Source of the DNA: Bifidobacterium choladohabitans | Lineage (GTDB): Bacteria; Actinomycetota; Actinomycetes; Actinomycetales; Bifidobacteriaceae | Assembly: GCF_016102005.1 (NCBI RefSeq) | Contig: NZ_JACFPL010000002.1 | Location: forward strand, 496,001-560,000 | Direction of reading: 5' to 3' | DNA length: 64,000 nt | Made by a program: the position numbers and the translations under genes | In this document: positions 54,478 through 58,659 of the stretch, piece after piece | Layout of the letters: each line of letters begins with the position of its first letter | Position numbering within the stretch: position 1 is the first letter of the stretch | Notes under the pieces: model-generated | What the model saw: only the letters and a program-made list of their open reading frames with translations | Told to the model about the DNA's origin: nothing | Databases searched by the model: none

Positions 54478-54771
54478 TCAGTTGCGCACTTGGTCCTTGG
54501 CGTTGTTGACAGCCTCGGTGGCGCCCTGCTCAGCCTTGGCCTTGCCGACCTTGGCATCGGCCTTGGCCTGGTCCATCTTGTCGGAAGCGGCGTCCTTGGC
54601 GTCGCCCATCTTGTCCTGGGCAGCGTCCTTGGCGTCGCCCATCTTGTCGGCAACGGCGTCCTTGGCATCGGATGCCTTGTCCATAACGGTGTCCTTTACA
54701 TCGCCAGCGACATCGGAAATCTTCTCGCCGGCAGACTTCATGGCATCCTTTGCATCATCCAGAATCCCCAT
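54478..54771 (-). CDS. small amphipathic-repeat (LEA/apolipoprotein-like) protein
   Basis: This 97-residue protein is built of 11-residue units of the form DKMGDAKDAAQ, with Ala, Asp and Lys in a pattern typical of LEA-like amphipathic helices. Such proteins are mostly disordered in solution and are linked to desiccation or envelope stress in other organisms; no role is proven here. ATG 54771 has an ideal AAGGAGG; the upstream frame extension has no support. It has its own terminator and is likely highly expressed. Confidence 0.8.
   Translation of the reverse strand: MGILDDAKDAMKSAGEKISDVAGDVKDTVMDKASDAKDAVADKMGDAKDAAQDKMGDAKDAASDKMDQAKADAKVGKAKAEQGATEAVNNAKDQVRN
54590..54680 (-). repeat. 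33-bp tandem repeats within the small repeat protein gene
   Basis: GCGTCCTTGGCGTCGCCCAT and the next six bases occur identically at 54590 and 54623, with a diverged third copy at 54656. The period of 33 bases equals the 11-residue protein repeat, so unit gain or loss would keep the frame. Confidence 0.8.
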
Positions 54772-55018
54772 ATGGTCCTCCTTAGGTCCTTGAACGCACC
54801 GTGACGATGCGTGACCATTGCGGTCAATTTTCACTGTAACAGTCAGGGCCTTGAATCCGCGGATTGACGGGCTGACACGCCAGGAAGACACTCCAATCCG
54901 CTGGAGGTGAAACCTGGCGGATCAGGGCGGCCGGACAACAGTCCCAGAACCGGGTTATCTTGGTGTCTATCCGTCGGGACCATAGGGGCCCCGCATTCAT
55001 GACGACAAGGACGATGAC

Positions 55019-55648: not shown

Positions 55649-56641
55649 TCAGTCCACCTGATGCTCGCTGGTGCCGCCCTCAAGAATGGTCTTCACGTCG
55701 TTCAGCGAGATGTTGACCATGGCGGTCACGGCGGCATCGGTGTAGAAGCCGATGTGGGGCGAGACCTCGACATTGGGCATGGCCTTGAGGGTCTCCAGGG
55801 CCTGGTTGTCGACCTTGGTCCCGCTCAGGTCCTTTTCGAAGATGCCCGCCTCCCCCTCAATGGTGTCGATGGCGGCACCCGCGATGGACTTGGTCTGCAG
55901 GGCCTTGATCAGGGCCGGGGTGTCCACAATGGGGCCGCGGGCGGCGTTGATCAGGAAGGCCGAGGGCTTCATGGCATCCAGGGCCTGCGCGTTGATCAGA
56001 TGGTGGGTGGTCTCGTCCAGCGGCGTATGAACGGTGACGATGTCGGCCCGCTTCAAAAGCGTGGGTAGATCCACGTAATCCAGGGTGTCTGCCAGCTCGG
56101 GGCGGTGAACCGGATCGTTGGCGATGACGGTGGAGCCCAGGGCCCGGAAGATCCTGGCCACGGCGGATCCGATCTTGCCAGCTCCGATGATTCCCACGGT
56201 CAGGTTGTGAATCTCATGGGCCTGAAGCCCAGCCCAGGTATAGTCGTCCTTTGACTCGCGAGCGCTGGCCTCCCCCAGATGCCGGACCAGACGCATGACC
56301 TGGGCCAGGACCAGTTCGGAGACCGATCGAGGCGAGTAGGCAGGCACGTTGGTGACGACCAGCCCGTTCTCCCGAGCGGCCTGCAGGTTGACGATGTCAT
56401 ACCCCGTGATTCGCAGGGTCAGCTGCTTGAGGCCATAGTCCTTGAGCCGCTGGTAGAGCTCCGGCTCGGGCAGGGCCGCGTGCTGCTGGATGACGATGCC
56501 GTCGTATCCCTTGATCATGTCCACGGTCTTCATTCCCAGATCGTGGTCGGTGGTGTCCACCTGAATGTCATTGGCTTGCGCCCAGGCCTGAATGGCCTCC
56601 TGCTCGTCGGGGCGCACTGAATACATGAGAATACTGGTCAT
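55649..56641 (-). CDS. D-2-hydroxyacid (D-lactate family) dehydrogenase
   Basis: The 330-residue protein follows the lactobacillar D-lactate dehydrogenase layout closely. The Rossmann motif is GIIGAGKIGSA at residues 150-160, and the catalytic residues are Arg235 (NAARGPIVD), Glu264 (IEGEAGIF) and His296 (SPHIGFY). These numbers match the classic enzymes. Where those have Tyr52, which limits substrate size, this protein appears to have Ile51 (GIVIQQHAAL), so larger 2-keto acids such as phenylpyruvate may be preferred. It lies 80 bases after the aminotransferase gene on the same strand, with AAGGA before its ATG, and probably shares its transcript. Bifidobacteria normally make L-lactate, which also argues for a different substrate. 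Confidence 0.88.
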   Translation of the reverse strand: MTSILMYSVRPDEQEAIQAWAQANDIQVDTTDHDLGMKTVDMIKGYDGIVIQQHAALPEPELYQRLKDYGLKQLTLRITGYDIVNLQAARENGLVVTNVPAYSPRSVSELVLAQVMRLVRHLGEASARESKDDYTWAGLQAHEIHNLTVGIIGAGKIGSAVARIFRALGSTVIANDPVHRPELADTLDYVDLPTLLKRADIVTVHTPLDETTHHLINAQALDAMKPSAFLINAARGPIVDTPALIKALQTKSIAGAAIDTIEGEAGIFEKDLSGTKVDNQALETLKAMPNVEVSPHIGFYTDAAVTAMVNISLNDVKTILEGGTSEHQVD

Positions 56642-56721: not shown

Positions 56722-57894
56722 TCAGCCGCGATTTTGAGCGCGCATATAGTCGCCGATCCGCTCCACGGCGGTATGCAGATCCTCCATGGAGGCGGCATAG
56801 GAGATGCGGACGTAGCCTTCTCCCCCAGGCCCGAAGCTTGCTCCGGGGATTACCGCCACCTTGGCCTTTCGAGCCAGGTCGTAGACGAAGCTCCAGCTGT
56901 CGCGCATACCCTCGGGCAGCCGGGCGAAGATATAGAAGGCCCCCTTGGGATCGATGACGTCCAGACCCACCTCTGGCAGGGCCTTGACCAGATAGTCCCG
57001 CCGCTTGCGGTAGGCCTCGCGCATCGGATCCGTGTCGTTCATGCCCTTGGTCAGAGCCTCCTGGGCCGCATACTGGGCATTGGTGGTCACCGAAGTGATG
57101 GTGAACTCGTTGACCTTGCTGATCTGATCAATGACGTCGGCCGGGCCAGCGGCGATGCCGACCCGCCATCCAGTCATGGCATGGGACTTGGAAACCCCGC
57201 CAAGAACGACCGTTTGTTCGGGCAGGATGGTGCCCATGGACACATGGGTGCCCTGATAGGTCAGCTCGGCATAGATCTCATCGCTGAGCACGAAGAAGCC
57301 GTGCTTGCGCGCCACCTGGGCCAGTGCTTCCAGATCCTCACGGGCGTAGGTCACCCCGGTGGGGTTGGTCGGATAGTTGAGCACCAGGGCCTTGACCGGA
57401 CCATCGCTGTTTTCGATGGCGGCCTCCAGCTTGTCCGGCTTGAGAATGAAGCCGTCATCGGAGGTGTCGACGAAGACGGTCTTGGCACCGCTCAGCTGGG
57501 CAATGGGGATGTAGAGCGGGAAGATGGGCGTGGGCAGGATGACCGTGTCGCCCGGGTTGATCATGGCGGTCAGGCCCGAGAAGATGCCCCCCGTGGCCCC
57601 GGCCGTAATCACCATTTGCGTGTCAGGGTCGTAGTCCAGTCCATACTTGGCGTGTAGATAGTCGGCCGCCGCCTTGCGAAGGCTGGGCATGCCGCGGCTT
57701 TCGGTGTAATGACTGTGGTTGTCCTGGATGGCCCGGATGCCCGCCTGCTTGACGTGCTCGGGGGTGAAGAAGTCAGGCTCCCCCAGGGTCAGCTTCACGA
57801 TGCCGTCTATTCCGGCGATCTCCTTGTTGAACTCGAGAATGTCGCTCGGTGCCAGGGCTTTGACCCTGGCATTCATATGATCCGCCAATGTCAT
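56722..57894 (-). CDS. class I/II PLP aminotransferase, candidate aromatic aminotransferase
   Basis: This 390-residue fold-type I enzyme has TLGEPDFFTPEHV, NYPTNPTGVTY, SDEIYAELTY and the PLP lysine in GGVSKSHAMTGWRVG, placing it in the AraT/PatA group. Substrate is not determined by these motifs. I set the start at ATG 57894, seven bases after AAAGGA; ATG 57912 six codons upstream has no ribosome-binding site. The leader upstream encodes an aromatic-rich peptide and can fold over this start, suggesting that aromatic amino acids control it. It would fit transamination between aromatic amino acids and their keto acids, with the dehydrogenase downstream acting on the keto acids. Confidence 0.88.
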   Translation of the reverse strand: MTLADHMNARVKALAPSDILEFNKEIAGIDGIVKLTLGEPDFFTPEHVKQAGIRAIQDNHSHYTESRGMPSLRKAAADYLHAKYGLDYDPDTQMVITAGATGGIFSGLTAMINPGDTVILPTPIFPLYIPIAQLSGAKTVFVDTSDDGFILKPDKLEAAIENSDGPVKALVLNYPTNPTGVTYAREDLEALAQVARKHGFFVLSDEIYAELTYQGTHVSMGTILPEQTVVLGGVSKSHAMTGWRVGIAAGPADVIDQISKVNEFTITSVTTNAQYAAQEALTKGMNDTDPMREAYRKRRDYLVKALPEVGLDVIDPKGAFYIFARLPEGMRDSWSFVYDLARKAKVAVIPGASFGPGGEGYVRISYAASMEDLHTAVERIGDYMRAQNRG

Positions 57895-58043
57895 TGGCTT
57901 GTCCTTTCCCATGCGGTTACTACAACCATTGTCGCTGGTGCCGCCCTACCGACTATGCGGTGACGATGCACGGGAAATGCTGTCGACGACTGCAGGGCCG
58001 GTGGGTTCCGATCCATGCAACCGTTCCTACAAGGCACGCGGCG
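57895..58043 (-). promoter_or_regulatory. candidate RNA switch sequestering the aminotransferase start
   Basis: UUUCCCGUGC (57977-57968) can pair with GCAUGGGAAA (57914-57905), ten pairs with one G-U, covering the ribosome-binding region. The same arm (57973-57967) can instead pair with UGCAUGG at 58019-58013, and part of it with GCACGG at 58062-58057 inside the leader peptide codons. GGCACG (58063-58058) also pairs with CGUGCC (58038-58033). There is no U tract, so control would be translational. Hand-folded only. Confidence 0.5.
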
Positions 58044-58091
58044 TCACAGATCGAATCCGTGCCACCAATAGGTAAATCGTGTGCCCTGCAT
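58044..58091 (-). CDS. aromatic-rich leader peptide (candidate attenuator uORF)
   Basis: Fifteen codons, MQGTRFTYWWHGFDL then TGA. AGGAGG is placed six to seven bases before the ATG, a better ribosome-binding site than that of the downstream gene. Phe6, Tyr8, Trp9, Trp10 and Phe13 make a third of the peptide, including adjacent Trp codons as in known trp leader peptides of actinobacteria. It is followed by 149 bases of foldable leader and then the aminotransferase. Chance occurrence of such a peptide after such a site is unlikely but not excluded. Confidence 0.6.
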   Translation of the reverse strand: MQGTRFTYWWHGFDL

Positions 58092-58122
58092 GCTGAAACC
58101 TCCTGCGGAATCTACAATCAGC

Positions 58123-58156
58123 ATTGTTGATAAGCATACTGCGGAATTTCAACAAT
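58123..58156 (-). promoter_or_regulatory. putative promoter and operator of the leader-aminotransferase operon
   Basis: TTGTTG (58155-58150) and TATCAA (58132-58127) are 17 bases apart. Transcription would begin near 58119, 28 bases before the leader peptide. The perfect inverted repeat ATTGTTGA-18 nt-TCAACAAT spans exactly these elements and could bind a repressor. Confidence 0.45.
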
Positions 58157-58659
58157 CATATGAGCGTGACCATTATTTGACCAGTCTCTTCCATTTTGCG
58201 GACGCGACTGGCATGCAAAACACGTGTTTATAGCAGGTGACACAATGCCAGACCAGATTGATCTTGAAATTTCCGGGATCTATCTTGACATTCCCTGGAA
58301 GGTTTCCTCGAATCACCCATTCACCCGGCTGGCATATCGCGGCCTGCGAATCTTTATCAGCACATTGAGAGAGCTCCACCCTCATCCACACATAAGCTCT
58401 CATCTCATTCCATTCCATCCCATTCCATCCCAACCCACGCATTGATCGGTTGCGTGCTGAGCGCAATCTTTTCGCTATGATCGGCAAGAACGAATCAGGG
58501 TGATGAACCATATCTAAGTAGTGTCGTACTGCCAAACTTGATCACGACACCGACCTTGTCTGACTGTCAGGCCTCTGCTTTGGGATCTCTGTCATATACT
58601 TTCCTTCAAAGACAGGCAAGAAAAGAAACTCTTGGATGTCGGTCAAAAGGGGTGAGGTA
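58157..58659. other. gene-poor region before the SDR gene (503 bp)
   Basis: Only short unconvincing reading frames are present. The pentamer repeat at 58406-58430 is its one clear structure. The right end contains the SDR leader, with GGGGTGAGGT before ATG 58660. Confidence 0.5.
58406..58430. repeat. pentanucleotide repeat tract
   Basis: CATTC CATTC CATCC CATTC CATCC, five units with two variants. It lies outside any supported gene, 230 bases before the SDR start. Confidence 0.75.

Follow-up and report, generated by a model that had tools for sequence, protein, structure and literature searches.

A conserved aromatic-rich leader ORF and two exclusive RNA helices suggest ribosome-mediated attenuation of an aminotransferase gene in Bifidobacterium

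Does the short, aromatic-rich reading frame ahead of an aminotransferase gene in Bifidobacterium choladohabitans report the supply of phenylalanine, tyrosine and tryptophan to that gene and, if so, with which sign? The window, i.e., the whole stretch of DNA analysed here, spans 64 kb of a genome of 2.08 Mb (G000), and was set against a comparison set of 27 genomes of the genus. A preliminary description of this DNA had reported a 15-codon minus-strand ORF with an ideal AGGAGG, five aromatic residues including Phe-x-Tyr-Trp-Trp, and an end well before the next gene, all of which was borne out. The ORF begins with ATG at 58091 and closes with a TGA stop ending at 58044; its Shine-Dalgarno sequence (SD), AGGAGG at 58104-58099, is followed by a seven-base spacer; five of the 15 residues are aromatic (F6, Y8, W9, W10, and F13); and the distance from the leader stop to the probable aminotransferase start, ATG 57894, is 149 nt. 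This ATG is likelier to be the start than 57912, given its SD, GAAAGGA, and the way in which the G017 orthologue aligns. The features of the leader and the genes behind it are as follows.

58123 to 58152, minus strand: weak promoter-like site TTGAAA-18-AACAAT just 5' of the leader, with 9 of 12 consensus matches
58099 to 58104, minus strand: SD AGGAGG of the leader ORF, without change in 13 near relatives and seven aligned sequences
58044 to 58091, minus strand: leader ORF encoding MQGTRFTYWWHGFDL, with one of 48 sites variable in 13 genomes
58062 to 58076, minus strand: candidate sensing codons F6 T7 Y8 W9 W10, where relatives have FSYWW, FSYWW, FSYWQ and FRY
56722 to 57894, minus strand: class I/II PLP aminotransferase (PRK07309-like), listed as ORF 57912-56722
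55649 to 56641, minus strand: D-isomer specific 2-hydroxyacid dehydrogenase (D-LDH family), from family searches and solved-structure matches

A scan of the 64 kb window for ORFs of 8-30 codons preceded by GGAGG gave 12 entries, the leader being counted twice among them, and it was the sole entry in which at least one third of the residues are aromatic; under the same limits, 40 dinucleotide shuffles gave 0 such ORFs. Conservation is, however, the stronger evidence, and the comparison of sequences confirms that the leader ORF is real and far from chance. Promoter-like sites number three on both strands as against 0.4 in shuffles, and the two hexamers of the site just 5' of the leader vary at five of six and three of six sites in the 13 near relatives. 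Further upstream, short GGAATG/GGGATG-like repeats (58400-58440, minus strand) lie in the spacer between the leader and a divergent SDR gene.

A DNA search with the 231-nt leader region matched 14 of the 27 genus genomes, 13 of which (the window's own included) match over nearly the whole region at 96-100% identity, whilst the match in G026 comprises 34 bases and falls on the leader codons. The same leader peptide is found in all 13 close genomes, and the lone variable site of the ORF, 58080, is synonymous. These 13 genomes amount to roughly one lineage and only five more lineages were seen. Aminotransferases orthologous to that of the window (61-100% identity) are present in 19 of the 27 genomes; G024 has a 40% match, and the remaining seven gave no match at E 1e-60. 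Among the six divergent orthologues, a leader lies directly upstream in four, namely in G017 (MLQDWRFRYRLH), G001 (MAHLSMSTLSRFSYWWRRLIL), G026 (MLHTLRRDTRRFSYWWRRLDL) and G021 (VGIRLVRLKSRFSYWQSRRDL), whose aminotransferases are 65-76% identical to the window's. Each of these leaders stands behind AGGAGG, and their aromatic motif reads RFRY in G017, where the Trp pair is absent (RFRYRLH), and RFSYWW, RFSYWW and RFSYWQ in the others. No leader was seen directly upstream of the aminotransferase in G002 or G012, and in the latter, where the aminotransferase is present, a covariance model search did not find one either. In an alignment of seven sequences AGGAGG and CGATTTA are invariant, which no longer holds once a displaced copy from G002 is added. 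The preliminary description had staked its proposal on the start, the SD and the aromatic codons being kept in close relatives, and the SD, the codons CGA TTT and an aromatic cluster are indeed shared by the window's clade and four other lineages.

It had also proposed aligning the 15 codons in search of synonymous-biased conservation; the codons are conserved, and synonymous sites of the ORF are as constrained as the others. This points to an RNA constraint overlapping the ORF, as would be found if the ORF were a chance frame inside a translation-independent RNA element, either riboswitch-like or a T-box. Such a frame seems extremely improbable, however, as the SD, the start and an aromatic-rich frame have been kept in five lineages despite leader lengths of 13 to 22 codons (stop included), and as no Rfam family reached its gathering score in the window stretch, L016 or L029-L032, where the five matches all fell far below it and none was a T-box or a leader. 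Behind the aromatic codons of the leader lie three RNA segments.

58045 to 58055, minus strand: segment R2, TTCGATCTGTG, at the end of the ORF, pairing with R3
58007 to 58017, minus strand: segment R3, CATGGATCGGA, pairing with R2 or, as the arm 58020-58008, with R4
57990 to 58001, minus strand: segment R4, CCGGCCCTGCAG, pairing with R3

The helices R2:R3 and R3:R4 are mutually exclusive, and their pairing persists even where the sequence differs between relatives. Across the 13 close genomes no site varies in the leader SD (0 of 6) or in R2 (0 of 11), four of 23 vary between the leader stop and R3, one of 31 in the R3-R4 hairpin, and 11 of 98 from R4 to the aminotransferase ATG; in contrast, 213 of 380 third codon positions vary in the aminotransferase of these same genomes, and two more distant upstream blocks of 100 sites each vary at 88 and at all 100 sites, with gaps counted as variation. 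The lone variable site of the hairpin (58020-57990), 58015 T/C, changes a U-G pair of R2:R3 to C-G.

The pairing was also followed on eight sequences, representing six lineages at most, and the shuffle numbers given here are not probabilities. For R3:R4, 94.3% of cells are paired and nine cells are changed on both sides, with 0 of 500 shuffles as high on each; three of its pairs are changed on both sides, a number reached by 104 of 500 shuffles, and its count of further pair types was reached by 476 of 500. For R2:R3, 80.7% of cells are paired and 0 of 500 shuffles are as high; its pairs changed on both sides also number three, which 38 of 500 shuffles reach and which a slide of +2 columns yields as well, and covariation in this helix is weak. 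When the partner is slid by 1-3 columns, paired cells fall to 22.5-42.5% for R3:R4 and to 12.5-50.0% for R2:R3. By eye, the R2 core of L030 is shifted relative to the other aligned sequences, and its pairing contains a bulge. In G017 most of R2 is kept 3' of the stop codon, and R2 is thus conserved as RNA. The spacing between the Tyr codon and R2 is 18 nt in all four divergent orthologues.

Folding was modelled with a ribosome assumed to shield 12 nt from the A site onwards. For a ribosome at W9, which places the first free base 12 nt upstream of where the stop codon ends, the mean probabilities over the 13 genomes are 0.98 for R2:R3 and 0.02 for R3:R4; with the ribosome at the stop, R3:R4 has a mean probability of 0.99, the R2:R3 measure being set to 0 once R2 is cut. 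Outside the window's clade the picture is less uniform: the stalled fold of L030 retains R3:R4, and R2:R3 in L031 is at most 0.48 over the full stretch.

We consider it likely, sign included, that this leader is a ribosome-mediated attenuator of the trp or aroR kind which is ON when charged aromatic tRNA is short. A shortage of charged Phe, Tyr or Trp tRNA would stall the ribosome within FTYWW, leaving R2 (the last codons and the stop) free to form R2:R3 and so block R3:R4; R4 would then pair downstream and the aminotransferase, with the dehydrogenase, would be expressed. Where aromatics are plentiful, the ribosome would reach the stop and cover R2, R3:R4 would form, and the output element would close. 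The comparison of sequences shows a conserved ORF, SD and aromatic codons together with two exclusive helices, their pairing included. The arrangement has much that is expected of an attenuator: a short ORF with its own SD precedes an amino acid gene, a cluster of cognate codons stands at a fixed distance before the switch (except in the G002 copy), and, according to the pair counts and folding, one of two exclusive helices is blocked by the ribosome; an intrinsic terminator before the structural gene is lacking in the window copy. The attenuation reading given earlier for this aromatic leader is thereby supported in silico. Its suggestion that Phe, Tyr and Trp are sensed jointly would hold for the FTYWW codons but not for the last Phe: in the model F13 can have no part in sensing, since a ribosome stalled at that codon would still keep R2 covered.

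It might be asked whether the aromatic codons matter at all, or whether the ORF is translated and only the arrival of a ribosome or its reinitiation counts, as a sign of translation stress or by coupling. The copy in G002, which has HVLLL in place of the aromatic cluster with the helices kept, would be consistent with such a role. However, F-x-Y is kept in the four divergent orthologues, followed by W in three of the four, with the Tyr codon 18 nt away from R2 in each, and the 149 nt between leader stop and gene start are long for simple reinitiation, so that we regard this explanation as very unlikely.

The aminotransferase contains Pfam Aminotran_1_2, and its best NCBIfam model, PRK07309, gave 530 bits, below the cut-off of 576; compared with solved chains, its best match is 4my5, with the 'aromatic aminotransferase' 1dju among 35 matches. 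Aromatic specificity of the enzyme is putative, the best family score falling short of its cut-off. The dehydrogenase aligned with solved D-lactate dehydrogenases. Prephenate dehydratase matches were found in 26 of the 27 genus genomes, the exception being G001, and phenylalanine can therefore probably be made in most; an aminotransferase raised by shortage makes sense as the last step of Phe and Tyr synthesis. In G001 itself, alone of the 27 in having no prephenate dehydratase match, leader, aminotransferase, dehydrogenase and transporter stand in a row.

The same anatomy could also operate with the opposite sign, with aromatic excess, or a TnaC-like arrest by the peptide, switching on an operon whose catabolic pair makes aromatic lactic acids. 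By its families, the gene pair resembles the aminotransferase plus hydroxyacid dehydrogenase route that converts aromatic amino acids into aryl-lactates in two steps, and a DL-stop ending occurs in three of the five peptide types. However, the nucleotides of DL-stop are those of R2, and since G017 carries its R2 past the stop without coding DL, it is the RNA rather than the peptide end that is conserved. Furthermore, the model yields the closed fold once the ribosome has reached the stop and shields R2, and a peptide of 15 residues is short for TnaC-like arrest. The opposite sign would thus suit a catabolic role of the two genes yet disagree with the modelled geometry, and we consider it unlikely.

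Three further features of the window concern the output element.

57968 to 57977, minus strand: 5' arm, TTTCCCGTGC, of a predicted SD-sequestering helix, varying at one of 10 sites (L023 has A for G, by which G-U becomes A-U)
57948 to 57953, minus strand: GTCGGT, with which the R4 region (ACCGGC) pairs instead in the predicted ON fold, from the model only
57905 to 57914, minus strand: 3' arm, GCATGGGAAA, of the predicted SD-sequestering helix, overlapping the aminotransferase SD (AAAGGA 57907-57902); 0 of 10 sites vary

As judged from the modelled structures, the output element is a terminator-like hairpin in G001, G026, G021 and G002, and probably an SD helix in the window's clade. In L030, L031 and L032 a hairpin, CCCCGCAGY..GCTGCGGGG, precedes the aminotransferase start and is followed by 5, 4 and 3 U, with energies of -19.3, -27.2 and -24.1 kcal/mol, respectively. 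A terminator scan reported terminators in L030 and L231, the hairpins of L031 and L032 (4 and 3 U) not being reported, and gave no intrinsic terminator on the gene strand in the window copy or in L029. In folds running from R4 as far as the loop of the terminator, R4 paired with the 5' arm of the terminator in L030, L031 and L032; starting from a stalled ribosome, L031 and L032 favour this fold over all others as far as the loop, whereas L030 does not. The completed hairpin always wins at equilibrium, where the full terminator never opens in any of the three, and antitermination must therefore be kinetic. The pairing of R4 with the 5' arm was matched by 65, 33, 7 and 155 of 1000 R4 shuffles in L030, L031, L032 and G002, respectively, and this pairing, R4:R5, is weakly significant when taken alone.

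Within the window's clade, control through the aminotransferase SD is only moderately supported by the model. Accessibility of this SD in the 13 close genomes has a mean of 0.61 (0.31-0.90) with the ribosome at W9, 0.34 at Y8 and 0.43 at W10, and is 0.31-0.32 in all 13 with the ribosome at the leader stop. Shuffling R2 gave an accessibility of at least 0.80 in two of 100 cases (mean 0.34), the window sequence having 0.84. In L029 accessibility barely shifts (0.55-0.68). The sensing part is thus robust in these models and its coupling to the SD less so.

The distribution of the element was followed with a covariance model built from seven sequences and run against 189 genomes of the family at E 0.05, under stricter filters by which weak matches are lost. 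It matched 18 of the 189, all in this genus, the only match outside the training lineages being in G002 (E 5.3e-5). A second model, which included the G002 copy, gave 18 genus matches of 97-124 bits and a next match of 19.1 bits, which has the look of a false positive; a second copy in the window's own genome was likewise rejected, the next best match there having 15.8 bits as against 112 and lying, like L240, over the start of a lipoprotein-like ORF. A leader copy of at least 97 bits is found in 18 of the 19 genus genomes with an orthologous aminotransferase (at least 61% identity), and in 0 of the 8 others.

Pattern searches cast a wider net. An FxYWW-type pattern gave at least 120 stretches in wider genome contigs; among the matches listed there were 12 short in-frame ORFs, four of which encode MQGTRFTYWWHGFDL itself (L049, L059, L097, L153), and, by eye, none of the other eight listed stands before an aminotransferase-like ORF. 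A shorter pattern, of a kind that misses leaders such as that of G017, matched 16 of 396 genomes of the order, seven of them in the genus; four of the nine outside it are in frame, two being antisense to long ORFs, one of 152 codons and one of 55 codons. These matches outside the genus are no more than chance, a backward control having matched about 29 of the 396 genomes. A looser pattern (SD, start, TGGTGG) was uninformative in the window's own genome, with 145 matches as against 61 in the control. Among plasmids, five records match, within the aminotransferase coding sequence only.

The G002 copy (L231:1501-1691) lies behind rather than before the aminotransferase and upstream of a gene for a PTS_EIIC_2 protein. 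It comprises an SD, a GTG frame (VAMWFTHSFRRLHVLLLRSNLKQQ), R2:R3 (TCTAATCTG/CAGATTAGA), R3:R4 and a 12-pair terminator-like hairpin, and on folding forms R2:R3 with R4:R5 where R2 is free and R3:R4 where it is not. The aromatic codon cluster is absent, HVLLL (VLLL in place of YWW) standing where others have FSYWW; the leader has possibly been recoded for Leu/Val sensing. In G021 the gene after the aminotransferase is PatB/MalY-like by eye, and no dehydrogenase was seen in the 9 kb fetched. The leader therefore tracks the aminotransferase locus rather than a fixed aminotransferase/dehydrogenase pair as proposed earlier, given G021 and the placing of the G002 copy before a transporter gene. By eye, G001 also encodes an EIIC_2-like protein 3' of the dehydrogenase, as does G026, where the frame (L233:2878-3462) is short, with 194 residues only, and has a truncated or split look. 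In the window, an ORF at 54478-54891 (minus strand), near a xanthine phosphoribosyltransferase gene, has repeated DAKDA/DKM motifs and is LEA- or CsbD-like by eye. It is conceivable, though rather doubtful, that the leader is an exchangeable aromatic-sensing module, which would serve an aromatic aminotransferase route with dehydrogenase, EIIC-type transporter or PatB-like neighbours, would use a terminator or an SD output according to species, and in G002 would have moved to a transporter with Tyr-Trp-Trp recoded to Val-Leu-Leu-Leu, now reporting branched-chain amino acids.

The aroR leader of aroF in Corynebacterium glutamicum was reportedly described by Neshat et al. in 2014, and Lopatovskaya et al. 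are said to have set out, in 2010, forms of attenuation in which helices are chained or the ribosome binding site is overlapped. In trpL and pheL of E. coli, the hairpin formed with the ribosome at the stop is the terminator itself, whereas R3:R4 here has no U run behind it and a separate hairpin or the SD helix would be the output; the order of sensing codons, protected segment and alternative hairpins is nonetheless alike. Both E. coli leaders are mentioned in a review (PMC11802643). According to that review, aroR has adjacent Phe and Tyr codons (Phe-Tyr-Phe) and stalling raises transcription, Tyr supply being without effect (PMC11802643). It is the nearest precedent found, by analogy: both are actinobacterial leaders with Phe/Tyr codons before an aromatic amino acid gene, likened by features and not by leader homology, but aroF encodes DAHP synthase rather than an aminotransferase, and the present leader has Trp codons and, in the window's clade, no terminator (PMC11802643). 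The trp attenuators of Corynebacterium and Streptomyces, in the main text of an actinobacterial survey (PMC1262725), share a leader peptide with two or three Trp codons and alternative helices, which are joined there by a GC-rich terminator; they serve the trp operon or trpS and Trp only, whereas here Phe, Tyr and Trp would be read for an aminotransferase. That text names trp, trpS, ilv, leu, leuS, cys and cbs elements and, for Bifidobacterium, only a cys-type leader of cbs and a LEU element (PMC1262725). The helix chain and the overlap with a ribosome binding site, to which the present leader is similar, are named variants of attenuation, with no aromatic aminotransferase example in the text available (PMC4833913), and the word aminotransferase is absent from the main text of PMC1262725 and from the text of PMC4833913 and PMC2965389 as available. 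Our search of open-licence papers found no published attenuator of an aromatic aminotransferase in bifidobacteria, and little in print on attenuation in bifidobacteria; a switch of this type is known from other bacteria, the aminotransferase case not being found described in the literature searched.

The element would tie three aromatic amino acids to one enzyme, at the point where Phe/Tyr synthesis and the keto/hydroxy acid branch part. Aromatic keto and hydroxy acids matter in gut communities, and in bees a Lactobacillus aromatic aminotransferase has been linked to learning and memory, in the part of the study available (PMC9018956). Across the orthologues, which make up a natural series, the switch is retained whilst the output, the target gene and, in one case, the sensing codons differ, so that the rewiring of attenuators would be directly testable.
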